A model generated the notes under the pieces. The model had not been told where the DNA came from, did not search any database, and saw only the letters and a list, made by a program, of their open reading frames with translations. A stretch of DNA of 32,575 bases, taken from the IMG/VR virus record IMGVR_UViG_3300003886_000030, positions 1 to 32,575 of that record, one strand, 5' to 3'. A program made the translations under genes and the position numbers. Shown one piece after another: positions 1-32,575 of the stretch; within the stretch, counting starts at the first letter, position 1; the number at the start of each line of letters is the position of its first letter. This DNA is from a virus.

Positions 1-91
1 TGTCTCTGTCTCTGTCTCTGTCTCTGTCTCTGTCTCTGTCTCTGTCTCTGTCTCTGTCTCTGTCTCTAGAGGATCACATTGATATCGACCT
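1..91. repeat. Terminal redundancy, left copy
   Basis: These 91 bases are identical to 32485-32575. The shared part holds eleven TGTCTC units plus 25 bases of unique sequence, so the match is not only microsatellite. Joining the ends keeps the initiator gene open in frame. I infer a circular assembly graph: either a circular or circularly permuted molecule, or an assembler overlap of one k-mer length. It need not be a physical terminal repeat. Confidence 0.93.
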
Positions 92-399
92 GATATCACA
101 TTGATATCATCGCGATCTAAAAAGCCCGAAATCTCCTCTAAGGACTTGATTACCTTAGTTAAGTCAATTCTCAATCTAAACGCAATTTCAGGCGCATCAG
201 GAATTCCCCCTTTCATATTAGGGTCTTCTGAGGCCAGCAGCCACAGACCTACTAAAACACGAAAAGAACAGTCTGATATCAAGTTGATATCATGTTGATC
301 CAGAATTTCCCGGTGTAATTTTATCCACGGTGGACGCCTATCTTTGAAGTGCTGAAACTTGTCCCAGTTTTTTATCCTTACTGACCTGATTTTTGCCAT
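1..399 (-). CDS. O-like replication initiator, N-terminal part (gene crosses the joint)
   Basis: This is the 5' part of a 254-aa gene that starts at 399, runs through base 1 and continues at 32484 down to 32119 in the same frame. The ATG at 399 lies 2 nt after the stop of the upstream regulator and has GGGGAAG ahead of it. Residues 1-110 begin MAKIRSVRIKNWDKF and look like the N-terminal DNA-binding part of phage replisome organisers (lambda O class, inferred). Next comes a linker of 13 Glu-Thr pairs encoded by the microsatellite, then the C-terminal domain. In lambda, O binds iterons inside its own gene and recruits P with the host DnaB helicase. GATATC iterons lie in this part too (70-300). 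The family role is confident from context and both halves; exact homology was not searched. Confidence 0.82.
   Translation of the reverse strand, partial: MAKIRSVRIKNWDKFQHFKDRRPPWIKLHREILDQHDINLISDCSFRVLVGLWLLASEDPNMKGGIPDAPEIAFRLRIDLTKVIKSLEEISGFLDRDDINVISGRYQCDPLETETETETETETETETETETET
70..300. other. Candidate replication origin: 11-bp GATATC iterons inside the initiator gene
   Basis: Perfect GATATC sites sit at 81, 92 and 103, exactly 11 bp apart, with a degenerate GATCTA at 114. A second cluster has GATATC at 275 and 286 and a degenerate GATCCA at 297, again 11 bp apart. The unit is TGATATC plus four variable bases. They encode the repeated peptide DIN(L/V)IS in the initiator. Clustered, helically phased iterons inside the initiator gene match the arrangement of lambda ori within O. 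The TGTCTC microsatellite borders the first cluster. Function is inferred. Confidence 0.7.
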
Positions 400-401
400 A
401 A

Positions 402-602
402 CTAATCTTCCCCAAGCGCAATAAACTCGCTTACGCTTATGTCAAAATATTTGCAAATATCAATTAAAGCGGAATGTCGAATTGCCCCCCGCCGAATCCA
501 GTTTGATATTAGCTGAGGATTTATTGACATTTCCTCAGCCATATCCCGATGTTTAACTCCCTTTTTAGCTATTGATAATCTCAATGATTTGCTTAAATCC
601 AT
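402..602 (-). CDS. XRE/Cro-like HTH regulator, first gene of replication operon
   Basis: A 66-aa protein starting MDLSKSLRLSIAKKG. A helix-turn-helix of the lambda-repressor/XRE type covers about residues 8-60, with recognition region near INPQLISNWIRRG, and the C-terminus is ISVSEFIALGED. I chose the ATG at 602 because AGAGG lies 7 nt upstream; an ATG at 617 (71 aa) has a weaker site. Its stop lies 2 nt before the initiator ATG, so it occupies the place of cro or cII ahead of O and P. It probably acts on the 20-bp repeats just upstream (646-685), which overlap the -35 region of its own promoter. Whether it is Cro- or CII-like cannot be told from sequence alone. Confidence 0.82.
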   Translation of the reverse strand: MDLSKSLRLSIAKKGVKHRDMAEEMSINPQLISNWIRRGAIRHSALIDICKYFDISVSEFIALGED

Positions 603-631
603 GCCTTGACCTCTCATCTGATAATGACCTA

Positions 632-3502: not shown

Positions 3503-5532
3503 AGAGTCCCTGACGCACCCGCAATAAAACTCATTAATTTGTCGGAATTTCTCTCAGGAGAGACCCACCTAACAAACTGCTGAGGCCCCATAGTTTCTAT
3601 TTTCTTTGCCCAGCTTGGAAGTAAGTTACCTTTCTTTTCAATTTCCAGCAAGGTATCTTTTATTTCGTTAGTATCGCTAGTGAACAACCTGTCGGCTAAT
3701 TCTTTGTCGAGCCTAGAGTCCCTTGTCGCCGCTGTCATTCTTTTTATAAGGCGACTAACAGCCCACAAGTTTCCTGTGGTTGCCCCCCCTACGTCAGCTA
3801 TAGCGCTAGTATCAACGCTGAGTTCGGCTTGTAGCGCTTGATTTTTGGCAGTAGAAGAGTTCCCAGTAACTTTGTTTTTATTGTTATTAAATACCCTTTC
3901 CCTCTCCATTTCTCGTGCGAATTTTTTGAATTTTTTATTACTTCCAAACATTACCTCAATCGCTTCCCTCTGGTTTTCCGACCCGAATATTTTAGGATAA
4001 AGCGCGGGACTAACCCCTTCCAGAGTATCTTTTGTGTTTCTTATCACGCGAACAAGCTCATCTGCGGCACCAAGCCTATAAAGATCCTTTTCGGTAGATG
4101 ACATTCGATTAAACTGCTTTTTGCTTAACGAAGAATCCTTGCTTGATGATCGAAAAATGTTGCGCCCCTTATCCATCGCGTCTAAATTTTTAGCCGAATC
4201 CTCCCATACATTTCTTGCCGCCTTATAGGCTGGGTTTTGCTTGTCAATCTCATCAGAAATCATTCGTCTAACATTCCCGTAAATCCGCGCCTTATTGCCC
4301 CCGCCCTTAACCATTGGATTTATTAGTTTTTCCTCCATGTCGTCAACGGCTTTTTTCGTATAATCCCAAAGCAGCGTATTCGGATTATCGATGTCAATAT
4401 TCTTTATATTGTCAGGCAGATTCATGTCATCCTTTATGTTTTGAACCGCCTCTTTCATTGCCCTTTTTACGATGTCGTTATCTTTCAACGCCCTAAACAT
4501 TGGGGTGTCTTTTATTTCGGTCTCGTAAGCTGCCTTATATAGCGGCCCCGCCTCTTCGCCTCTTTGTCGAAAAATAGCGTCTTTTTTATCGTTGAAATCT
4601 TCACCGCTTATTTCATTTTCAATGTTTTCCTTGACTCTTCCGCGCTGGCCTTTTTGTCGTTTAAAATAGAATTTATTACCTTTATTCATTGCTCGTCCCG
4701 GCTGCTGAATAACTGCCTGAGAAAGCCCCATAACGTTATCGCCGCCAATATCCCCGACAGAGGCATTCGGCCCAAGCGACGCCATTCTGCGGCGAGCCTG
4801 TGTAGGGCTTATATTATCTTTGCCAAAAGCTTCGGATATTTTTCTCAAGGCTTTTGACTCTTGGCCCCTGAATACATCAGTTGACGCGCCGTAAGCCTTT
4901 CCAACGCCTTTTGCTATCAATGGCACCCCTACGCCAAAAGCCGCGCCTTGGCCCGCCCCTTTTAGCACGTCCATTGCCGTTTCCGTCGCAATGTCTGCTA
5001 TCGGTTGATTTGGGTCTTGATCAGAGTAGCCAGCACCAGCAATAGCGCCCGGAACTGCTCCGGCTGCCGCGTATTTCACGACTTTAGGTGCTCCAGCTAA
5101 TCTTCCGGCAACCCTAAGCCCGCCAATTCCGCCAGTCGCAAAACCCCCGGCAAGTTCGGCACCCATAGATTCCTTCGGGTATTCTTTGCGGAACTGCTCT
5201 TGCTCGTCCCTCGCCTCTGTGACAATCCGCTTGTAACTATCACCGAAAGACTCTTCGTCAGAAAAAAGCGAAGGAAACGATTGAATCGCCGCTGAAATTT
5301 CATCGCTTGTACCCAGCGTCGCCCCCTGAGCAAGCATAGATAACATGCCGCGCTTAAAGTCCGATTTATTTAGCTTTTGCGGCTCGGCTTCGCCCTCTAG
5401 GGCGGGTGTCTGCTGCATGTCTGATCGATCAGTAAATCCAGACATATTAGGCGCAATTTTAACGCTTTCATCTGATTGAGGCTGGAAATTAGACGACTTG
5501 TAACCCTCGTCGCTACGATCAACGAACTCCAT
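3499..5532 (-). CDS. Ejection/internal virion protein (P22 gp16-position)
   Basis: A 677-aa protein, last of three large proteins at the end of the virion operon, where P22 encodes gp7, gp20 and gp16. An N-terminal acidic region is followed by QGATLGTSDEISAA (about 70-83), which I recall from many phage ejection-type proteins. A glycine/alanine-rich, membrane-prone segment follows, about 130-215 (AGGFATGGIGG, AAAGAVPGAIAGAGYSD, GAGQGAAFGVGVPLIAKG). The rest is charged and helical. In P22 such proteins leave the virion with the DNA and help it cross the envelope. It overlaps the preceding gene by 14 bp. No lysozyme motif is evident. The role is inferred from order and composition. Confidence 0.7.
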   Translation of the reverse strand: MEFVDRSDEGYKSSNFQPQSDESVKIAPNMSGFTDRSDMQQTPALEGEAEPQKLNKSDFKRGMLSMLAQGATLGTSDEISAAIQSFPSLFSDEESFGDSYKRIVTEARDEQEQFRKEYPKESMGAELAGGFATGGIGGLRVAGRLAGAPKVVKYAAAGAVPGAIAGAGYSDQDPNQPIADIATETAMDVLKGAGQGAAFGVGVPLIAKGVGKAYGASTDVFRGQESKALRKISEAFGKDNISPTQARRRMASLGPNASVGDIGGDNVMGLSQAVIQQPGRAMNKGNKFYFKRQKGQRGRVKENIENEISGEDFNDKKDAIFRQRGEEAGPLYKAAYETEIKDTPMFRALKDNDIVKRAMKEAVQNIKDDMNLPDNIKNIDIDNPNTLLWDYTKKAVDDMEEKLINPMVKGGGNKARIYGNVRRMISDEIDKQNPAYKAARNVWEDSAKNLDAMDKGRNIFRSSSKDSSLSKKQFNRMSSTEKDLYRLGAADELVRVIRNTKDTLEGVSPALYPKIFGSENQREAIEVMFGSNKKFKKFAREMERERVFNNNKNKVTGNSSTAKNQALQAELSVDTSAIADVGGATTGNLWAVSRLIKRMTAATRDSRLDKELADRLFTSDTNEIKDTLLEIEKKGNLLPSWAKKIETMGPQQFVRWVSPERNSDKLMSFIAGASGTL

Positions 5533-6901
5533 ATTTAGCCCTCCACCCCTCTAATATCTCTTCTTTTGGCCGTCTTATTCTGCCGCCAGACTCGTCAACT
5601 TTCCATTGATTGTCTTCTATCCACTGATTGATGAAAATCGTTTTTCCGCTTACAGGGTTGACACCTAAAAGTGGGGTGTTGTTTATGTAGTCATCCCATT
5701 TTGATTTAACAGAAAAGCTATTCCTGTTCCCCCCCATTGCCTGTTCGTTATAAAATGCCGACTTATTCCTGAGCCTTATCGACTCCGAAAGCATTAGATT
5801 TGAAATGAATTGATTAGCCTCTTCTGGATTACTTAAATTCGCAAGCTCGTTTCTAGCTCTATTAGCATCTTTATCAGTCATTACCCCAGCTTGGATGGAC
5901 AGCTTTTCAGAGACAAGGCGCTCTTGTATTGATCTAAATCTGGCAACGTCATCAATGCTATCCAAAAACCCAATTGAATCATCATCCATTCCAGCCCAAG
6001 ACGCTAGAGCCGATGTAACTCTTTTCGACATATCAACTATTTCAGTTCCGGGGCCAGTGTTGACGTTGATCAATTGCTGGGCCTTAATTAAGCTAATTGT
6101 TGTAGCTGCTGACTCTGCCTTTTCTCCCGCATCATCCACTAATTTCTGAAACGATTTGGCGTTATATTCAGCCCCTTTTACTGCCGTAGTCTTCCTTGCT
6201 TCAAAATCAATCTCTTCTTCAGGTGATAAATTATTGTCGCCTTCGATGTTAACTAATGGCTGCTTTTGTCCGGGAGAATAACCCTCGATAGGTATCTGTC
6301 CGCCACGATTTCCAAACTGAACCAGCGAGCTATCCCCTTCTCTATTCGTGACCGACTGAGGCTGGCCGAATTTCTCTCGATATTTATCCTTTCCAGCGCT
6401 AAACATTGCAGCGCCTAGCTCGCTCATAACTCTAGCGGACTCTTCGCTGTACTCGCCTAAATCCGAAACATCAATCCCTTGCTGAGACAGAAATTCCTGC
6501 CCCCCAGACCATCTTTGACTTCTTGTCTGCTCATCTTCCGGCTCTAGAACCCAATTTGCATAACCCATCATTTGCTTCGCCTCTTCGGCGGCTTTCTTTC
6601 TTTCGCCCCCCTGTAGCCGCCTGACTCCTTCAATAGACTGAACAAGCTGCTGGCCTCGCTCTGGGTCTTGAGCCATTACTTGCTTAATCATTGATGTCTG
6701 CTGTCCGCTGGGAGCATTTAACGCACTGCTAGACATTTGCGACAATCGGCCCTGAAGTTCTTGCTTCCTTGCTCTATCGTCTATTTGACGCTCCATTTCT
6801 GACGTCTGCATTCTGTCCATTTTTATCGCTTGCCCCGCTCGATAAGCGCCGATCAAGTCTAACGGCTGCTGCCGCGTTAATATTGGCCTTGGCTGTATCA
6901 T
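5519..6901 (-). CDS. Ejection/internal virion protein (P22 gp20-position)
   Basis: A 460-aa, Gln-rich, mostly helical protein starting MIQPRPILTRQQPLDLIGAY. AAAGGA lies about 8 nt before the ATG. Residues 25-110 are charged and likely coiled coil (RQIDDRARKQELQGRL, RRLQGGERKKAAEEAKQ). A C-terminal helical domain runs about 230-400, and the end (NTPLLGVNPVSGKTIFIN..W) resembles the C-terminus of P22-type DNA ejection proteins as I remember them. It sits between two other ejection-type genes and overlaps the next by 14 bp, so the three products are probably made in fixed ratios. Confidence 0.68.
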   Translation of the reverse strand: MIQPRPILTRQQPLDLIGAYRAGQAIKMDRMQTSEMERQIDDRARKQELQGRLSQMSSSALNAPSGQQTSMIKQVMAQDPERGQQLVQSIEGVRRLQGGERKKAAEEAKQMMGYANWVLEPEDEQTRSQRWSGGQEFLSQQGIDVSDLGEYSEESARVMSELGAAMFSAGKDKYREKFGQPQSVTNREGDSSLVQFGNRGGQIPIEGYSPGQKQPLVNIEGDNNLSPEEEIDFEARKTTAVKGAEYNAKSFQKLVDDAGEKAESAATTISLIKAQQLINVNTGPGTEIVDMSKRVTSALASWAGMDDDSIGFLDSIDDVARFRSIQERLVSEKLSIQAGVMTDKDANRARNELANLSNPEEANQFISNLMLSESIRLRNKSAFYNEQAMGGNRNSFSVKSKWDDYINNTPLLGVNPVSGKTIFINQWIEDNQWKVDESGGRIRRPKEEILEGWRAKYGVR

Positions 6902-6964
6902 TCAATTATCCTTTAGCGTTTATCATTCGTCAGGGCTAAAATTGACGCCCTTAAATTTATGGTG

Positions 6965-9900
6965 TTAATCAGCCCCGTAGGCCGCCGCGCCCACCTTAAT
7001 TCCGGTCTGTATAAGGCTGGAAATTCGGTCGGCTCGATTAGCCTTTATATTAGCGTTATTTGCATAATAATTTTGCAATAGGCTGCCCCTTTGAAGCGCA
7101 GCATTTGAAATTGCAGTGCCCCGCCTGTCAGCTATTCCAATATTTGTCGCTGTCGCCCCGGAATATGCGTTTAACAAATTAGCCGCAGCTCCGGCTTCTG
7201 CCGCCGAATCAGCAGCTAAATAATTAGTGTTAATCGAAGCATTTTCTAATTCATTTTGACCTGACAATCCTCCGGATGCCACTCTAAAGTTTGCCTCTAA
7301 AGATGACCTATCTAAGGCTAAGTTTGAATTTAAGTTCCCCAGCACTCCTTCAAGCTGCGAATCATACCCAGCATTAACAATCTCTCTGCCAGAGTTTATG
7401 CCGCCGACCTCTCGTGCATTGTTTGCGCCAACTCTCGCCAACTCTTCGGCCTGTCTAGACTCATACGCACCAATAAGTCGCGAAGAGTCAGACCGAATTC
7501 TACCAACGTTAAATGCTCTTTCCGAGTTTATGCTTCCGGCCCGATTAGTGGCTCCGCGAAAAATTGCCGCAAGATTAATGGCTTCGCGAGAATTTACATC
7601 CCCAACTTGTCGATATTGAGCGGATTCGCTCGAAGCAAGATTGCTAGCATTTGCCGCGACGATGTCGCCCTCCCGCCTTAATGCTCCGCTTCTCAGTTCC
7701 GCAATATCGGAGGCCATTCCCGCGTTAATTTGACCTGTGTATCTGGAGTTTCCCGCGTCATATTCTGCAATATTAAGATCGGCTTCTCCTCTTGCATTGC
7801 CAATATTTCTCGCGGCGGAGGATTCTATCCTGCCTATTTCTCGAGTAGCTCCGCCTCTTAATCTGGCCAGCTCTGAAAGTCTGTTTGAATCCGCTATCCC
7901 GGAATTTATCTTATTATTTGCCTCATACCCGGCAATTTCTAATGCGGTATCCGCTCTAACGTTTCCAGAATTTATTGCGGCAGTCGATCGGACATCGCCA
8001 ATTTGTCGTGCGGTAACACTTCTATAGCTGGCTATGTCTGATTGCCCTCTCGAATTCGCTAACGCCGACCTTTCCGCGTCTTCTGCATTAAACCCCGCCA
8101 CGGTTATTTCCGTGTCACCCCTAACTCGCCCTGACTCTCTAGCCGCGCCAGAATCAACTTTTCCAATTTGCCGGGCTGTATTTCCCCGCACGTTAGCCAA
8201 ATTTGTTGTTCTGTCCGCGTTGACTTCGCTCGAATATCTTAAGTTCTCAGCTTCAAAACCGGCGACTAAAGATTGCGCGTCCGCTCGTATGTCGCCAACG
8301 TCTCTTGCAGCACCGCCACGAATATTTCCGCGTGAAACTTCAAATCTAGTTAAAGCATCGGCCAAGTTTATTTCGGTGTTCGCTGCATTTGAGTTTGCAT
8401 TTGCCGCAATAGCTGCGTAATTACCGGCAGCGTTAAGGCCGCGACCCGATTGACCCGAGAGCACCTGAGACCGTCTATTTTGATCATTAACGAATCTGTT
8501 TCTAGCGTTATCAAAGTATTGTTGCCCAAAATTAACAGAATACTTGATAATATCTTTTATTACGTTACTGGTGATCCCGAGAGCTGAGCCGCGATTTTCT
8601 ATTGCGCTCTGGCCTTCTTCGAGGCCAAGTTGATAGCCCCCATCTTTCACTAAATCCTCATATCTAAACTCGCGAGTCAAGCTATCAAAGTCGTCCCGTA
8701 ATTTATTGCTAGCCCATTGCCCATTTTTAATCCACGGGGTAAATACCTCTTTAGCTTCTGCCTTTGTTTCGTCAAATCTGGCAATAGCCCTTTTCGCTCC
8801 GCCTCTTTGTATTCCTTCCGCAACGCCTATTGAATTAAGCTGAGACTCCGCCCCTTCGTTAACGCCCTTAATCCTAGACAATGAAGACTCATTGACGCCC
8901 GAGACCTGTCGAGTGGTATATTTACCCGACCCGTCAAGCAAAATATTGGAAGACTCATTGATCCCTGAAATATCGGTTCTTTGCGCTTCTCTTAACGCCT
9001 GCGTAGAAATCCTCCGCCCTGACTCGATTCCTTGCAAGTATCTTGCTTCTGCGTCTCTTGCGCCTTTTGATTTTGTTCTGGCGTACTTTCCATAACCGTC
9101 AATTAAGGTTCGAGTTGATTGGTTTATGCCGTCAACTTTAATCCTCTCAGATGACTTAAGCCCATTAATGGCAAATCTTTTTGACCTGCCGATTCCGTCC
9201 AACCGGCTAAACTCTGCCGCCCTTGCTCCCTTACCCTTCTCGCTTGCGTATTGACCATAACTCCGTATTAACGAATTTGCAGAGAGGTTCACACCGGTTA
9301 GTTCTTCATTTTTAGCCTTGTTAATGGCTTGAGACGCGATGGTTCTCTCATTAGAAATGCCGTCGATATAGCTATCTCTAGCATCTTGCGCCCCACTAAT
9401 CAGCGAAGAATTCGCCTTTCTAGACGCCCCGATAAGAGAAGACGCATAACCCTTTGCGGCTTTTACGTCAATGTCGGTAGCCCTGCTCAGTGCATTTACC
9501 AGCGCATTAGTGGCATCTTTCATGCCCTTTTGGTCTACTCTAGCCGCTCCATTAATCGAGTCACGTAAAAAATTAACTGATTTACTGATCGCCGATAAAT
9601 CAATTGTTTTTGATTTATTAACTGCGCTTAACAGGGCTTTAGCCGAATCGTTGGCAGCCTTAACCTCTCTTCCTGCCGAGTATCTTTCTGATCTCCTTAA
9701 AAAATCCGAAGAAACAATGATCCCCTTCATTTCTTCCGTCTTGGCCGCCCTAGCCGCTTTTAACGCAGATTCCGCCGCCCTGTTACTCCCGGACTTCTGA
9801 AGCCTAATTGATTCTTTTATTGAGCGGCTTAATATTCTTGAGGAATTGTTTAGGCCGCGCTGCTCTGATGTATACGCATTGAATAGCGTGTCCAGCATGG

Positions 9901-10673: not shown

Positions 10674-12223
10674 ACGCTTAACTGCTCGGTGTCAATGTAC
10701 GCGTCAGTTAGGCATATTGTTGTGTTATCGCGAGTAGTCGAACCAAAGCTGTAATCACTGGTAATTCGGTAAAGTCTTTTTATGGACGCCCCTAAAGCAT
10801 AAAATTCTAATAAACCGCTATTTTGCCGTATATCAAAAGCCCCCATTTCCTCCCATGTCTTGCCCTCATCGTCCGACCTTGCTACTTCCACCATTACAGG
10901 GGTTATCAATGCAATAAGGGTGAACTTCAGCTTTAAATACCTATGAATTAATTGCTTTTCATCGGCCCCCTCTATATATCTTGATGTCATTGAAACCAAT
11001 TTCGTCAATGGCTGGCCTGATACTGTGGCTTCCACGTTAAGCCACATCTCATATGAGTGAATTTCATTTGAGCTTACTACTTGCCCAGATGATCCTATGC
11101 TTGAAGCTGGGATTACTAGATTTAGCTGCTCGTTCCCTTTTGCGGCCATATCAATAATACCGTAAGAATCATAGGCGTACTTGCTCATTTCATCGGGACT
11201 AGAGCTTTCTTTTGACCACATACCAGAGCTCAATCTATAAACCCAAGTTCCAACTTCCGGCTTATTGAAATTAAGAATATAAAGCTCGGTATCTGATATT
11301 AACAGCTTTCTTCCGAGGGAATTTTTTGCAAAAATAAGGTTCTTATCCAGCTTTGATAGCTGGCTTTTTAGCTTTTTAGGGGTTATGTCTATTAAAGTGT
11401 ATCCAGACGTTCTATAAACCGCTACACCCCCGCCTTCTTTTTCTCCCAAAAATATAGAAAAATCGCCAAACTTAACTAGCGATCCAACCGAATATAGCCC
11501 TACCTTAATGTTTGCCGATGAATTTCTTAACAAAGGAAAGCCCGAGTTTGCTGCGTTATACCAGATTGATGTATTCTGGCTGCTCATGACCCATAGTTCG
11601 CGATTATCGGTAAAGTGACCCACTAACACTCCGGAATTAGATTCAATTACAGCAAATCTGGATGTATCAAAATCCACTCCACCCAATATGGTTGAATACA
11701 CCCTGTTAGCAAGGGTGCTAATAAAAAAGAACCCGTCCAAATAGCTAAGCCCGTTTATTTGCTGATTATTATTTAAGTCATTAATCGAGAGCGTATCGAG
11801 TGATGGGTCAAATCGCATGTTAACTACTATAGTTTTCGTCTCAGAAGCCATTGCTATTAATAGCTTGCCATTATCCTCCCTCTTTCCCTCAGCCCATAAA
11901 ACTCTTGTATTAAAAACAAACGGGACTGCACCGACGTTGCGTATAACGCCATTTTCATCCATAGACTTTAAACTAGTCAGGCCTAAAGACCTTAATAAAA
12001 AATATATTCTAGCCTGAAAAGAAAACGTCTGAGGGACGATGAAAACACCTAAAATCCGATCAGAAGAGTTATTCGTTGAATAAAAAAGCTTTGTTCCCGG
12101 CATTTTTCTGAAAATTGCCGTTTCTTTTTCGGCTGAAAAGTCAACCGTCATATTTACGCACTCGGAAGCTGAAATGGAATTATTCCAGCTTGTCCCAGTA
12201 TCGCCAAAAAGATTTACTCTCAT
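10670..12223 (-). CDS. P22 gp10-like packaged DNA stabilisation / tail hub protein
   Basis: 517 aa, close in length to P22 gp10 (472 aa). The N-terminus (GDTGTSWNNSISASECVNM, then KMPGTKLFY) and a beta-propeller-like body with many short strands match the phage stabilisation protein family (gp10, Pfam Phage_stabilise), which closes the portal channel below gp4. Its ATG overlaps the gp4-like stop (ATGA) and the gene runs directly into the tail-tip candidate. Identification rests on gene order, size and the N-terminal pattern; no database search was run. Confidence 0.78.
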   Translation of the reverse strand: MRVNLFGDTGTSWNNSISASECVNMTVDFSAEKETAIFRKMPGTKLFYSTNNSSDRILGVFIVPQTFSFQARIYFLLRSLGLTSLKSMDENGVIRNVGAVPFVFNTRVLWAEGKREDNGKLLIAMASETKTIVVNMRFDPSLDTLSINDLNNNQQINGLSYLDGFFFISTLANRVYSTILGGVDFDTSRFAVIESNSGVLVGHFTDNRELWVMSSQNTSIWYNAANSGFPLLRNSSANIKVGLYSVGSLVKFGDFSIFLGEKEGGGVAVYRTSGYTLIDITPKKLKSQLSKLDKNLIFAKNSLGRKLLISDTELYILNFNKPEVGTWVYRLSSGMWSKESSSPDEMSKYAYDSYGIIDMAAKGNEQLNLVIPASSIGSSGQVVSSNEIHSYEMWLNVEATVSGQPLTKLVSMTSRYIEGADEKQLIHRYLKLKFTLIALITPVMVEVARSDDEGKTWEEMGAFDIRQNSGLLEFYALGASIKRLYRITSDYSFGSTTRDNTTICLTDAYIDTEQLSV

Positions 12224-12879
12224 TCAGGGTCTCTAGAGTCTTTAATCAATCCCTGTATCATATTCTTACCGTCTCCAGCTAACATCGCAAGCTCCGGCGT
12301 TACTGGCTTTCCGTATTCCGGCGCAAGGTCTACAGCGAGGTTCATTGTTAGACCTCGAATCCAAGGGCCGGGTAAGGCTATGATGTCACCAGCATTAGCG
12401 ATGTGCGCTATTTCCTTAAGAGAAGTTATGTGCAAAGTCTCAGTGGACAAAGTTGTCCTATCAAATCTTATTGTCGCTAATTCAATATAATCCGAGTCAG
12501 TTGTCTCAAAGTAAAACGCTTCGGGGCGGTTTATGGATACACCTTTTGCCGGTAATGACGCGTACTGCTTATCGTTAAGCTCAACGAGCATATGATCAAC
12601 GTTCTCGATATCCCTGAAAAACATAGCTGATATCTTAACGGGCTTTGTCGTGTGCATATCGCCGCTAACCCCCATGCTTAGCTCTGATATCGACCCGGCA
12701 ATTGAGAATTGCTCTGTCTGCTTATATGGCAGCAATAATTCTTCATAAGACCACGAGGACTTCAGCATATTAAGAGCGCTTAAAGCTGCCGCCGTCTGAT
12801 CCGGGCTAGGGGATGCACCAACTGCCAAAACCCCAAGTTTACGCAATGCCCCGTCAATTATATCGCTTCCTGTTGCCAT
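12220..12879 (-). CDS. P22 gp4-like tail accessory / head completion protein
   Basis: 219 aa. The N-terminus IDGALRKLGVLAVGASPSPDQ followed by ALSALNMLKSSWS is the typical helical opening of P22 gp4-type proteins, which bind below the portal and form the head-tail joint. The end EYGKPVTPELAMLAGDGKNMIQGL also fits that family. I take the ATG at 12879, whose A is shared with the upstream stop (TGATG), over a TTG one codon earlier. No gp4 lysozyme-type activity can be judged from the sequence. Confidence 0.8.
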   Translation of the reverse strand: MATGSDIIDGALRKLGVLAVGASPSPDQTAAALSALNMLKSSWSYEELLLPYKQTEQFSIAGSISELSMGVSGDMHTTKPVKISAMFFRDIENVDHMLVELNDKQYASLPAKGVSINRPEAFYFETTDSDYIELATIRFDRTTLSTETLHITSLKEIAHIANAGDIIALPGPWIRGLTMNLAVDLAPEYGKPVTPELAMLAGDGKNMIQGLIKDSRDPE

Positions 12880-13226
12880 CAAAAATACTCCGATTTAAAA
12901 ACTTCTGGCGTGTAATCCTGATTCATCCCCTGCACGAGCTGAATAAATCCGGCTCTCTCCTCAGACTTTAACTGATTGTGAATCGCCCTAGGAACGACAA
13001 ACTCACTTACAGCCTCCGCAGAAACTATCTTTTTTAAGGGCTGAACCGCCCAACCGGGGATTTCGCCGTTAATATCCCAAGTCGTTAAGCTGTCATTCTG
13101 AAGGTTGCTATAAACGGTATCATAAACCAAAGAAACCGCCGACATGTCAGTTGTAGAAGCTGACTGGCCAATGCGTATCTTCCCGATATTCCGCAAAACA
13201 ACATTCAGAAAGTCGGCTTTAGTCAT
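12879..13226 (-). CDS. Second small connector-type protein, distant gp4-like
   Basis: 115 aa. The opening VVLRNIGKIRIGQSASTTDMSAVSLVYD echoes the gp4 N-terminus of the next gene (LR.(I/L)G....G.S.S..D..A), suggesting a shortened relative that would also bind the portal or head completion ring. It continues with WDINGEIPGWAVQPLKKIVSAEAVSEFVVP. Start and stop overlap both neighbours by one base, so translation is coupled. In other P22-like phages this slot may hold a separate head-closure protein. The relation to gp4 is an inference from the N-terminal pattern only. Confidence 0.68.
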   Translation of the reverse strand: MTKADFLNVVLRNIGKIRIGQSASTTDMSAVSLVYDTVYSNLQNDSLTTWDINGEIPGWAVQPLKKIVSAEAVSEFVVPRAIHNQLKSEERAGFIQLVQGMNQDYTPEVFKSEYF

Positions 13227-19376: not shown

Positions 19377-21323
19377 TCACCTCTCCGGCCTAATCCTTAT
19401 AACGCTTTCTTCGTGCCTTATGCGCACCAAATACCCCACCACACCAGATAAGCCAGCAAATATATCGCTAGCGCTAACGCTGTAGGACGAAGATTCTAAA
19501 GTTAAGCTTTGACTTAAATCAAAACCTAGGTCATTTTCTAAAACCGTAAAACCTGAAGACTCTAAAGTTAAAGTTTGACTTAAATTAAAACCCAAATCAT
19601 TTCCCAGAACTGTGAAACCTGAAGATTCTAGGGTAAAAATTGGTCTTAAATCAAAATCTAAATCATTTCCCAGTACCGCGAAACCTGAAGATTCTATGGT
19701 TAAAGCTGGGCTTAAATCAAAATCTAAATCATTGCTCAGAACTGTAAAGTCTGAAGATTCTAGGGCCAAAAATTGATTTGAACTAAAATTTAAATCATTG
19801 CCTAGAACTGTGAAGCCTGAAGATTCCAAAGTTACACTTTGACTTAAATTAAAACCTAAATCACTACCGAGTAGTGTAAAACCCGTAGACTCTAAAGCTA
19901 CACTTTGTCTAACATTAAAACCAAGATCATTACTCAGAACCGAAAAGCCCGAAGATTCTAGGGCTGCGCTTTGGCTAAAATCAAAACCTAAATCATTCCC
20001 AAGAACCTCAAAACCCGAAGATTCTAAAGCTGCGGTTTGGCTGAAATTAAAGCCCAGATCATTGCCCAGAACCGCAAAGCCCGCAGGCTCTAAAGTTACA
20101 CTTTGGCTTAAATCAAAATCTAAATCATTTCCCAGTACCGTAAAACCCGAAGATTCTATGGTTACACTTTGGCTAAAATCAAAACCTAGGTTATTGGTAA
20201 GAACCGTAAAAACCAAAGATTCTAAAGTTTCACTTTGCTCCCCAATGCTTTCAGCAGCCCCTGTTGAGATAAACGCCGATGGATTATTTTGGTTGTTATA
20301 TGATGTAGCTATTTCAGGTGCAGAAAGAACCTCATTATAGATGCTAAATTCTGACACAGCTCCAGCTAAAAAAGCCACAGGGGAAGACCTGACTAATGCT
20401 GATATTGACGAGCTATCAAGGGTTAATGGGGTAGGTGTGTAATTAAAATCAGTGGCGTCTAAGATGCCGTCGATATAAACATTTACTATACCATTGTTAT
20501 CAACCCATGTCAGTAAGTGATCAGTGCCATCAAAAACAGGTAATGTAGATTTAATGCGGTTTGCACTTACGAAAGAATTGTCCCCGCGAATGTAAGCGGA
20601 TAATTCCGGCCCTAATCCGTCAGCCTCAGTGCCTAAAGTAAAAAGCGGGGTATTACTGGAGGATGAACCCTCACCATATAGCCGCAAATTATCTTGGAAA
20701 TTCGGCACATTAACCCACATTTGAATCGAATAACCAGTTGACTTATGCGCCAATGCTGAGTTAATAGTCAAATAATCATTAACGCCATCAAATTCTAAAC
20801 CATTGCCAATTTTTCCAGCAATTAAATCATTGCTTGCCATTCCCCCGTTAGAAGTGTAATGATTTCCAGACCCAGATGAGTCAATCATTTGTGGAGCGCC
20901 GCCAGAAGGGTCTTGCTCTAAATGTAAGCTACAAATTCGATTCGGCCTATAAACATTAAAGCGGCCATATAAATCACCGGCAGCATAAGCACTTAATAGC
21001 GAACTTCCGTACTCAACATAAAACCTAGTATCAACGAGCGATGATAATAACCACCCAGCCCCACTAATCCATATTTGACATTCACCATCGCCTGCCCCTA
21101 AAGCGCTATCAGGGGTAATTGAGACAACTTCGAAAGCAAGCTCATTTGTTTGATCGTCATTTTGATATACACGGGTATTTGCCGCTGTAATTCTTTTAGA
21201 ATTCGTAGGATCAAAAGCGCTATCTGGGAAATTTGCGCGTGACAACAGAACGGGCATATACGTGATATCGGCGACAACCTGTGTCGCTAAAATATCAAGC
21301 GGTAACCTATGCGTATTCGCCAC
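19377..21323 (-). CDS. LamG tail fibre / receptor-binding protein with 22-aa repeats
   Basis: 648 aa from a GTG at 21323, 6 nt after the preceding stop. Residues about 20-125 resemble the DUF2341-type module (FPVLL..., VYQNDD..NELAFEV, WISGAGWLLSS, FYVEYG). Residues about 130-345 form a LamG/concanavalin-type jelly roll (GLEFDGVNDYLTI, YSIQMWVNVP, VNVYIDG, AGAVSEFSIYNEVLSAPEI). Residues 368-609 are eleven tandem 22-residue repeats, then a tail SDIFAGLSGVVGYLVRIR. DUF2341-LamG pairs are typical of carbohydrate-binding phage fibres. No head-binding domain like the P22 tailspike is seen, and the gene lies upstream of terminase, unlike P22. It is probably the host-recognition or decoration protein. 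Confidence 0.75.
   Translation of the reverse strand: MANTHRLPLDILATQVVADITYMPVLLSRANFPDSAFDPTNSKRITAANTRVYQNDDQTNELAFEVVSITPDSALGAGDGECQIWISGAGWLLSSLVDTRFYVEYGSSLLSAYAAGDLYGRFNVYRPNRICSLHLEQDPSGGAPQMIDSSGSGNHYTSNGGMASNDLIAGKIGNGLEFDGVNDYLTINSALAHKSTGYSIQMWVNVPNFQDNLRLYGEGSSSSNTPLFTLGTEADGLGPELSAYIRGDNSFVSANRIKSTLPVFDGTDHLLTWVDNNGIVNVYIDGILDATDFNYTPTPLTLDSSSISALVRSSPVAFLAGAVSEFSIYNEVLSAPEIATSYNNQNNPSAFISTGAAESIGEQSETLESLVFTVLTNNLGFDFSQSVTIESSGFTVLGNDLDFDLSQSVTLEPAGFAVLGNDLGFNFSQTAALESSGFEVLGNDLGFDFSQSAALESSGFSVLSNDLGFNVRQSVALESTGFTLLGSDLGFNLSQSVTLESSGFTVLGNDLNFSSNQFLALESSDFTVLSNDLDFDLSPALTIESSGFAVLGNDLDFDLRPIFTLESSGFTVLGNDLGFNLSQTLTLESSGFTVLENDLGFDLSQSLTLESSSYSVSASDIFAGLSGVVGYLVRIRHEESVIRIRPER
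19497..20222 (-). repeat. Eleven 66-bp tandem repeats in the fibre gene
   Basis: The unit ESSGFTVLGNDLGFDLSQSV plus two residues is repeated eleven times with exact 22-residue spacing and no indels; a decayed twelfth (ESSSYSVSASD) follows. Invariant positions are E1, F5, L8, D11 (except N in the first copy) and F14. Variation is mostly at positions 6, 9, 13 and 15-21. Exact 66-bp spacing allows slippage or unequal recombination without frameshift, so copy number may vary between phages. Confidence 0.9.
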
Positions 21324-31462: not shown

Positions 31463-32122
31463 TTAATTTACGCCGTTTATTGCGGCTCTAACCTTCGCTA
31501 TCCGGCCGCTTAACTTAGCATCATCACTAACGCTTGACGTGGACAGTAGTTTTGATATAGCCCGCCCGCTGTCGCTTATATCTGAGGCTGGGTGGGCTAA
31601 CACATATTTCTGGCTAATTTTTTTGCTTTTAAAGGCGTCGTTTACGGCTGCGCTCCTTTTTTGCTCGTCCGAGCCCAGAGATACCGACCACCGAGCTGGC
31701 TTTAGTTCTTTTCGCGCCTGCTCGACTAACGATAAGTAAATCTCCCTAAAGGCCATTTTTGCGCCCTGCTTGTCTTTAGCCTTTAGAATTTCCTGTGCAA
31801 GAAAAAACGCTTCAGAGGTTTCTTCTGTCCAAACAACAGTTTCAGACTCGCATCTGGATTTAAGCGCCATTGCCCACGCTTCATTTTCCCCCGGACGACC
31901 GTCCATTTTCATCAAAAATTCGATTATATCCGCTGGTTTAGGGGTGAATTTCGATGTCTTTTCGTGTTGACTTAAGGCTTTCAAGACTAACGGCAAGGGA
32001 TAGGGCTTAAGCGACGCCCACCATCGCTTCATTGCGGTATCGCTAACTGATGCCCGGTAATCAATAACTTCAACAACAGCTTTTAACTCAGCTTCAAATT
32101 TTTTATACTCGTCGCCTGTCAT
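31463..32122 (-). CDS. Lambda P-like helicase loader
   Basis: 219 aa directly after the initiator, overlapping it by 4 bp. The N-terminal half has the pattern of phage replicative helicase loaders of the P type: VSDTAMKRWWASLKPYPLPLVLKALSQHEK then KFTPKPADIIEFL. The C-terminal part is helical with MAFREIYLSLVEQARKEL. There is no Walker A motif, so it is not DnaC/AAA-like. P-type proteins bring host DnaB to O at the origin. The assignment rests on gene order and this pattern. Confidence 0.78.
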   Translation of the reverse strand: MTGDEYKKFEAELKAVVEVIDYRASVSDTAMKRWWASLKPYPLPLVLKALSQHEKTSKFTPKPADIIEFLMKMDGRPGENEAWAMALKSRCESETVVWTEETSEAFFLAQEILKAKDKQGAKMAFREIYLSLVEQARKELKPARWSVSLGSDEQKRSAAVNDAFKSKKISQKYVLAHPASDISDSGRAISKLLSTSSVSDDAKLSGRIAKVRAAINGVN

Positions 32123-32575
32123 TTTTCAACTTCCCCGTTTATATAATTTCCATCAAAATCATCACGCGCCCAGTCAGGGATTTCGCTGTTATCAATTCCG
32201 GTGGATTTTGTTGATTTATCCGACTCACTCATCCATTCGCATTTAAAGCCCCGCCACCCGCTCGACTCGGCCTTGGCAATGCAAACGGACACGGTAAAGC
32301 CTAAGTCTACGGCTAGGTGCAATTCCTTCCCCGTGGTGTCAATTGCTGACTGACTTATCGACCCCTTGTTACGCTTTTTCATGATTAACCAATCTTTTAG
32401 CAGTTTTTCGTCTGGCTTTTCAGGCCAAGAATCAAAATTTAGTTTTTTAATATTTTTAGGCTTGATCTTTTTTGTCTCTGTCTCTGTCTCTGTCTCTGTC
32501 TCTGTCTCTGTCTCTGTCTCTGTCTCTGTCTCTGTCTCTGTCTCTGTCTCTAGAGGATCACATTGATATCGACCT
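32119..32575 (-). CDS. O-like replication initiator, C-terminal part
   Basis: Continuation of the gene that starts at 399; 32485-32575 repeats the left end. After the Glu-Thr linker the sequence KKIKPKNIKKLNFDSWPEKP, LLKDWLIMKKRNKGSISQSA, LAVDLGFTVSVCIAKAESS and GWRGFKCEWM is the typical C-terminal domain of phage O-like and DnaT-like replication proteins (W...P...L.DW...RK..K...S...I), expected to contact the helicase loader. It ends 3 nt into the P-like gene. The in-frame join was checked by codon phase across the junction. Confidence 0.85.
   Translation of the reverse strand, partial: GRYQCDPLETETETETETETETETETETETETETKKIKPKNIKKLNFDSWPEKPDEKLLKDWLIMKKRNKGSISQSAIDTTGKELHLAVDLGFTVSVCIAKAESSGWRGFKCEWMSESDKSTKSTGIDNSEIPDWARDDFDGNYINGEVEK
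32473..32550. repeat. (TGTCTC)13 microsatellite
   Basis: Thirteen perfect 6-bp units in the circular map (eleven of them repeated at 1-66). On the coding minus strand the unit is GAGACA, giving Glu-Thr 13 times in the initiator. The 6-bp period preserves the frame whenever units are gained or lost. No interruption is present, which suggests recent slippage or selection for uniformity. Confidence 0.95.

Follow-up and report, generated by a model that had tools for sequence, protein, structure and literature searches.

A probable phage replication origin made of palindromes at 11-bp spacing within the gene of its own initiator

The window, by which we mean the whole 32,575-bp phage contig analysed here, very probably carries a replication origin inside the gene of its own initiator, where it would be bound at octameric sites, opened at an adjacent purine-rich tract and read at one iteron base by residue 18 of the initiator. 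The elements follow one another in the order DNA-binding domain, iterons, purine tract, C-terminal domain and loader gene, which is a layout of the origin-in-initiator type. This reading draws on the sites, their spacing, the constraint on the DNA, the non-coding copies and a covariation between one residue and one base, all of them seen in the sequences. In the proposed mechanism, initiators would bind 8-bp palindromes of the form TG[A/C]TA[T/G]CA through their N-terminal winged-helix domain and, as the palindromes lie one helical turn (11 bp) apart, would sit side by side on the same face of the helix. The bound complex would then distort and open the adjacent GAGACA tract, and in this phage also the AT-rich stretch beyond it, while the C-terminal domain and the neighbouring loader would bring in the helicase. 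The residue following the FQH motif, Phe18 in this phage, would read position 3 of the half-site, with Phe corresponding to A:T and Tyr to C:G. Lambda O and RepA serve as the analogues from which we infer origin activity, initiator binding, DNA opening and helicase loading.

The two ends of the contig exhibit an exact 91-bp overlap (1-91 and 32485-32575), the simplest reading of which is a circular genome of 32,484 bp. About two thirds of this overlap is a simple repeat, which makes the number of hexamers at the circular join uncertain. As the contig ends overlap and the frame is open, the initiator gene, on the minus strand, continues over the join to 32119 and encodes 254 amino acids on the circle. 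Its 5' part, with the ATG at 399, occupies 1-399, and its 3' part (32119-32484), in the same frame, encodes the end of the linker and the C-terminal domain. Both parts match PHROGs profiles, the N-terminal part as 'replication protein' and the C-terminal part as 'replication initiation O-like' (phrog_678, amino acids 116-250, E 1.7e-11, a match due in part to the Glu-Thr tract). The next gene (31463-32122, minus strand) encodes a 219-residue protein that matches phrog_6028 (unknown; 4.6e-49) and phrog_2289 ('helicase loader'; 3.4e-6), and is probably a helicase loader. In relatives, the gene at this position encodes a DnaC-like loader, a primase or a replicative helicase.

A sequence-only reading of this DNA had reported GATATC at 81, 92 and 103 and at 275 and 286, in steps of exactly 11 bp, and the same positions and steps were obtained on recheck. 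In the main cluster, the minus-strand octamers are TGATATCA at 102-109 and at 91-98 (iterons 1 and 2) and CGATATCA at 80-87 (iteron 3), all found by site search and conserved in relatives. The decayed copies that had been proposed at 114 and 297 are only half-matches; the one at 114 is not conserved in relatives, and we rejected it as a fourth iteron. A conserved, partial fourth copy is found on the opposite side, at about 69-76 on the minus strand (TGATCCTC); it is apparent in the consensus, and 57 of 62 relatives retain its GAT codon. The number of GATATC sites in the window (13, with 7.4 expected and 6 of 100 shuffles reaching 13) is by itself poor evidence, whereas their phasing is strong evidence: three 11-bp steps are observed, while not a single such step arose in 150 genomes simulated with the nearest-neighbour composition of the window. 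When the initiator gene was shuffled synonymously, with protein and codon usage fixed, 4 of 100,000 shuffles reached three such steps.

The early pair of iterons (274-292, minus strand; TGATATCA at 285-292 and at 274-281) is confined to the subclade of the window, being present in only 8 of 183 distinct relatives and always 183 bp from the main cluster. Of the two-cluster origin proposed earlier, the main cluster is the widespread part, and the early pair may provide extra affinity or regulation. Three more GATATC sites lie within 12607-12691, two of them 22 bp apart, inside an unrelated gene (12220-12882); they form no octamer array and are probably due to chance.

The 183 distinct relatives of the first compilation came from protein and DNA pattern searches, 138 of them being found by protein; a scan of genome contigs gave no match with a single sequence and 11 with an alignment. 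The best short period after the DNA-binding domain, among periods of 9-14 bp, is 11 bp in 165 of the 183, a count that includes members found through the DNA pattern. Across the whole viral collection, a pattern scan found the 11-bp GATATC triplet in 56 stretches, with spacing controls of 0 at 10 bp and 1 at 12 bp, and most of the 56 sit in the initiator gene, 82-85 codons past W..FQH. The conserved unit is the 8-bp palindrome TG[A/C]TA[T/G]CA at a pitch of 11 bp. Two large groups exhibit different octamers at the same place in the gene, TGATATCA (GATATC) in one and TGCTAGCA (GCTAGC) in the other, and the usual element comprises three good iterons and a partial fourth, followed by the purine-rich GAGACA tract. 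Thus, of the earlier proposal of an origin within the initiator gene, the nature of the gene, the preserved 11-bp spacing, the constraint on the DNA and the layout stand, but the unit is an octamer and GATATC itself is not universal, some relatives using GCTAGC. With this element, origins could be recognised in a large group of phages, cultured and uncultured, whose examined records annotate no origin. Against the origin reading, 22 of 197 distinct domains are without a scored array, and the cultured relative Venkman exhibits no recognisable one. A search of the plasmid collection gave no homologue of the N-terminal domain of the initiator. Two further 11-bp GATATC triplets (L202, 13417-13444; L224, 1911-1938) lie in AT-rich contigs with no tract or initiator gene nearby and may be unrelated or due to chance.

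Among 62 protein-found GATATC relatives, the Ile codon is ATC in 60 of 62 at copy 1 and ATA in 62 of 62 at copy 2, while elsewhere in the same genes ATC accounts for 28% and ATA for 20% of Ile codons; as the relatives share ancestry, these counts are not independent events. A preference for particular codons cannot explain this pattern, since one amino acid is encoded by opposite choices at adjacent copies. The GCTAGC group exhibits a similar codon bias at its iterons. The purine-rich (GAGACA)n tract, which was delimited with TRF and by its codon bias, encodes Glu-Thr repeats on the minus strand at 1-67 and continues past the join at 32473-32484. In relatives, Glu, Thr and Arg are encoded in the tract by GAG, ACA and AGA in 95-96% of cases, compared with 28%, 34% and 20% elsewhere. 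This codon usage indicates that selection acts on the DNA of the iterons and of the tract and not on the protein, and the corresponding initiator peptide (DINVIS, ETETET) would then be dictated by the origin DNA inside the gene.

Adjoining the tract, at 32425-32472, lies an AT-rich stretch (70-85% AT in 20-bp bins) that is a candidate site of unwinding in this phage. An AT-rich unwinding element common to the whole family was considered and dropped, the family average showing no such conserved element, and GC skew was dropped as an origin marker because it tracks gene direction and gives no origin signal. Both results count against the origin reading, as does a Polynucleobacter prophage in which the purine tract is missing.

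The same element is also found in non-coding DNA. Contig L237 carries an initiator gene of the family without internal iterons, and in the long intergenic region downstream of its initiator and loader genes iterons at 11-bp steps form four clusters, each with three to five copies; after the last cluster come the purine tract and an A-rich run. In this region (6539-7050), a similar AAATCAA-rich run precedes each of the four clusters as a second repeated element. In contig L231 (12.4 kb), in which no initiator was seen, five iterons are followed by CTCCAGAGACAGAGACAG and then by AT-rich DNA, the whole arrangement being non-coding. In these two contigs, the element thus persists as DNA without the peptide, and such relocated copies would serve as natural controls. 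A lone 11-bp GATATC triplet (L223, 1745-1772) lies just upstream of another gene, on the same 61.5-kb phage contig (IMGVR 3300009506_000028) as the in-gene array L206.

Two other explanations of the repeats themselves have to be weighed. One is that they follow the protein, the DIxxIS..YQ and ETETET peptides being selected and the DNA repeats being secondary. These peptides are indeed conserved, and a charged linker could plausibly connect two domains, but the opposite codons at adjacent copies, the strong codon bias of the tract, the presence of the element in non-coding DNA, and an ASxxLA peptide that keeps the 11-bp repeat at the same place all argue in the other direction; this explanation is already largely refuted, and we give it almost no credence. 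The other is that the array is an operator for the initiator or for another regulator and that replication starts elsewhere. Palindromes of 8 bp would suit a dimeric repressor, plasmid initiators often regulate themselves, and the phage with the lone triplet mentioned above, which lies just upstream of another gene, possesses an in-gene array as well. However, the arrays are located about 250-300 bp into the gene, far from its start and at a fixed distance, beside a purine tract constrained at the DNA level, and those of L237 lie downstream of the initiator and loader genes, which makes an operator improbable compared with an origin.

The N-terminal DNA-binding domain (about amino acids 7-95; 115-381, minus strand) is predicted by AlphaFold2 to be a winged helix (pLDDT 82.6). 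The profile phrog_26426 matches all 89 aligned N-domains, and phrog_186 (DnaD-like loaders) matches 59 of these 89 relatives (best 1.3e-6), the protein of the window itself giving no match to the latter. The lambda O family PF04492, which matches lambda O itself at 5.7e-36, matches neither the window protein, nor four relatives, nor the 89 N-domains, and RepA_N (PF06970) has no match among the 89 members at Pfam E values up to 0.1. By these profiles, the domain matches neither of the two curated families, and sequence searches of Pfam, NCBIfam and the PDB gave no convincing family for it. Foldseek found nothing below E 0.001 in the PDB for the N-domain model, and the comparison of folds therefore relies on VIA-align rows, which are weak; 4pql, 5kbj, 4pt7 and 4pta are among the best of them, and their Z scores of 5.3-5.8 are too low to prove kinship. 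DnaD and the RepA N-domains of staphylococcal plasmids are among the nearest solved folds, but their weak scores are no proof by themselves; lambda O is not among the fold-comparison matches listed, which proves nothing either.

The architecture is that of lambda O, whose gene contains the origin (PMC7466680): the iterons occupy a central position in the initiator gene, between the parts encoding the DNA-binding and C-terminal domains, the loader gene follows, a purine-rich run comes right after the iterons, and the C-terminal half of the window protein matches an O-like PHROG. In contrast, the lambda iterons are 18-bp inverted repeats at a spacing of about 20-24 bp, whereas those described here are 8-bp palindromes at 11 bp, in line with the earlier remark that the lambda iterons are longer (18-19 bp) and of another design. 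Moreover, the purine run of lambda is AT-rich, unlike the GAGACA tract, and lambda O matches PF04492, unlike the initiators described here. The parallel with lambda therefore holds for the layout but is not the only one, as the rep gene of pSK41 has equally central sites: its four Rep boxes are bound by a DnaD-like winged-helix N-domain, and the origin-encoded linker of Rep is dispensable (PMC5703833). RepA N-domains are in the top rows of the fold comparison, but the fold match is weak and the initiators described here lack a Pfam RepA_N match. In addition, the iterons of RepA_N systems are longer and form inverted repeats that surround a poly-A tract (PMC7145576), and RepA_N proteins are found mainly in Gram-positive plasmids, whereas the domain described here is without a homologue in the plasmid collection.

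Within PHROG 26426, gp04 of Iodobacter phage PhiPLPE and replication protein O of Cr-LKS3 belong to the same family; in both, FQH is followed by Tyr, and the gene contains iterons of the GCTAGC type as well as a purine tract. Their annotation goes no further than replication protein or DnaD-like loader, and the feature tables mark no origin or iterons. In geminiviruses, the position of the iterons is kept in related viruses while their sequence diversifies with Rep (PMC12548392), although geminivirus Rep is an unrelated rolling-circle protein with iterons outside its gene. In the open literature, which excludes subscription papers, we found no account of an origin with 11-bp GATATC or GCTAGC iterons.

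The GATATC and GCTAGC octamers differ by one base pair per half-site, position 3 being A:T or C:G, and the residue after FQH (Phe18 in the window, codon at 346-348, minus strand) tracks this base. In a 90% non-redundant set, this residue is Phe in 53 of 53 GATATC members and Tyr in 30 of 30 GCTAGC members. Among all distinct domains with an array (about 175), all 113 with Phe are paired with A/T and 60 of the 62 with Tyr are paired with C/G; the residue frequencies are biased by the FQH motif included in the scan patterns, but the protein scans did not select for iteron type. The two that do not conform, L046 and L073, form a divergent pair, and their arrays are mixed. One further array, that of L181, combines a Phe after FQH with one TGCTAGCA (GCTAGC) and two GATATC copies, and is possibly an intermediate of an iteron switch. 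In the structural model, residue 18 is located on a short strand beside the invariant FQH and presumably contacts the iteron base. The covariation suggests a simple lock-and-key code, and it makes a joint change of specificity in initiator and origin testable with one amino acid and one base pair.

On a tree built with residue 18 masked, five joint changes of residue and base are counted (bootstrap range 4-6), and the strong branches force at least three joint switches. We lean towards the view that the hydroxyl group distinguishing Tyr from Phe sets origin specificity and that these phages changed compatibility group several times by switching residue and iterons together. Since the gene contains the iterons, every such switch would at the same time change the linker peptide of the initiator, from DIxxIS to ASxxLA. 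The origin reading could also be right while the link between residue 18 and the base stems from common descent, or from domain and iterons having been transferred together, rather than from contact. One short DNA segment holds both the residue and the iterons, so recombination moves the two as a unit; the tree has many weak forks, with a switch count of 3 to 6, and L046, L073 and one copy in L181 depart from the rule. Nevertheless, the Tyr/GCTAGC clades remain nested among Phe/GATATC relatives with the residue masked, residue 18 carries 0.94 bits compared with at most 0.69 for other columns (iteron-coded residues excluded), and all 35 sequences fetched after the rule was formed fit it (8/8 and 27/27). 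We therefore regard ancestry or joint transfer without contact as rather unlikely, and a direct reading of the base by residue 18 as the better explanation.

Some further observations concern the records and the rest of the window. In phage ctEw122 (L001, MW202640), the initiator gene at 4001-4364 is unannotated in the record although its frame is open. Limnohabitans phage DC33 (L087) is recorded as a member of the Inoviridae, yet it has 39 kb and this initiator gene, so its taxonomy line looks doubtful. Like PhiPLPE, DC33 possesses the element itself, and the two have known hosts in Limnohabitans (DC33) and Iodobacter (PhiPLPE). In the window, a 20-bp unit, TACGAATAGATTGCAACAAA, is repeated 2.4 times at 645-692, just upstream of a Cro/CI-like gene (402-605, minus strand), and is a possible operator. 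Finally, eleven tandem units of 66 bp occupy 19488-20237, within the gene of a predicted structural protein of 648 amino acids (19377-21323, minus strand).
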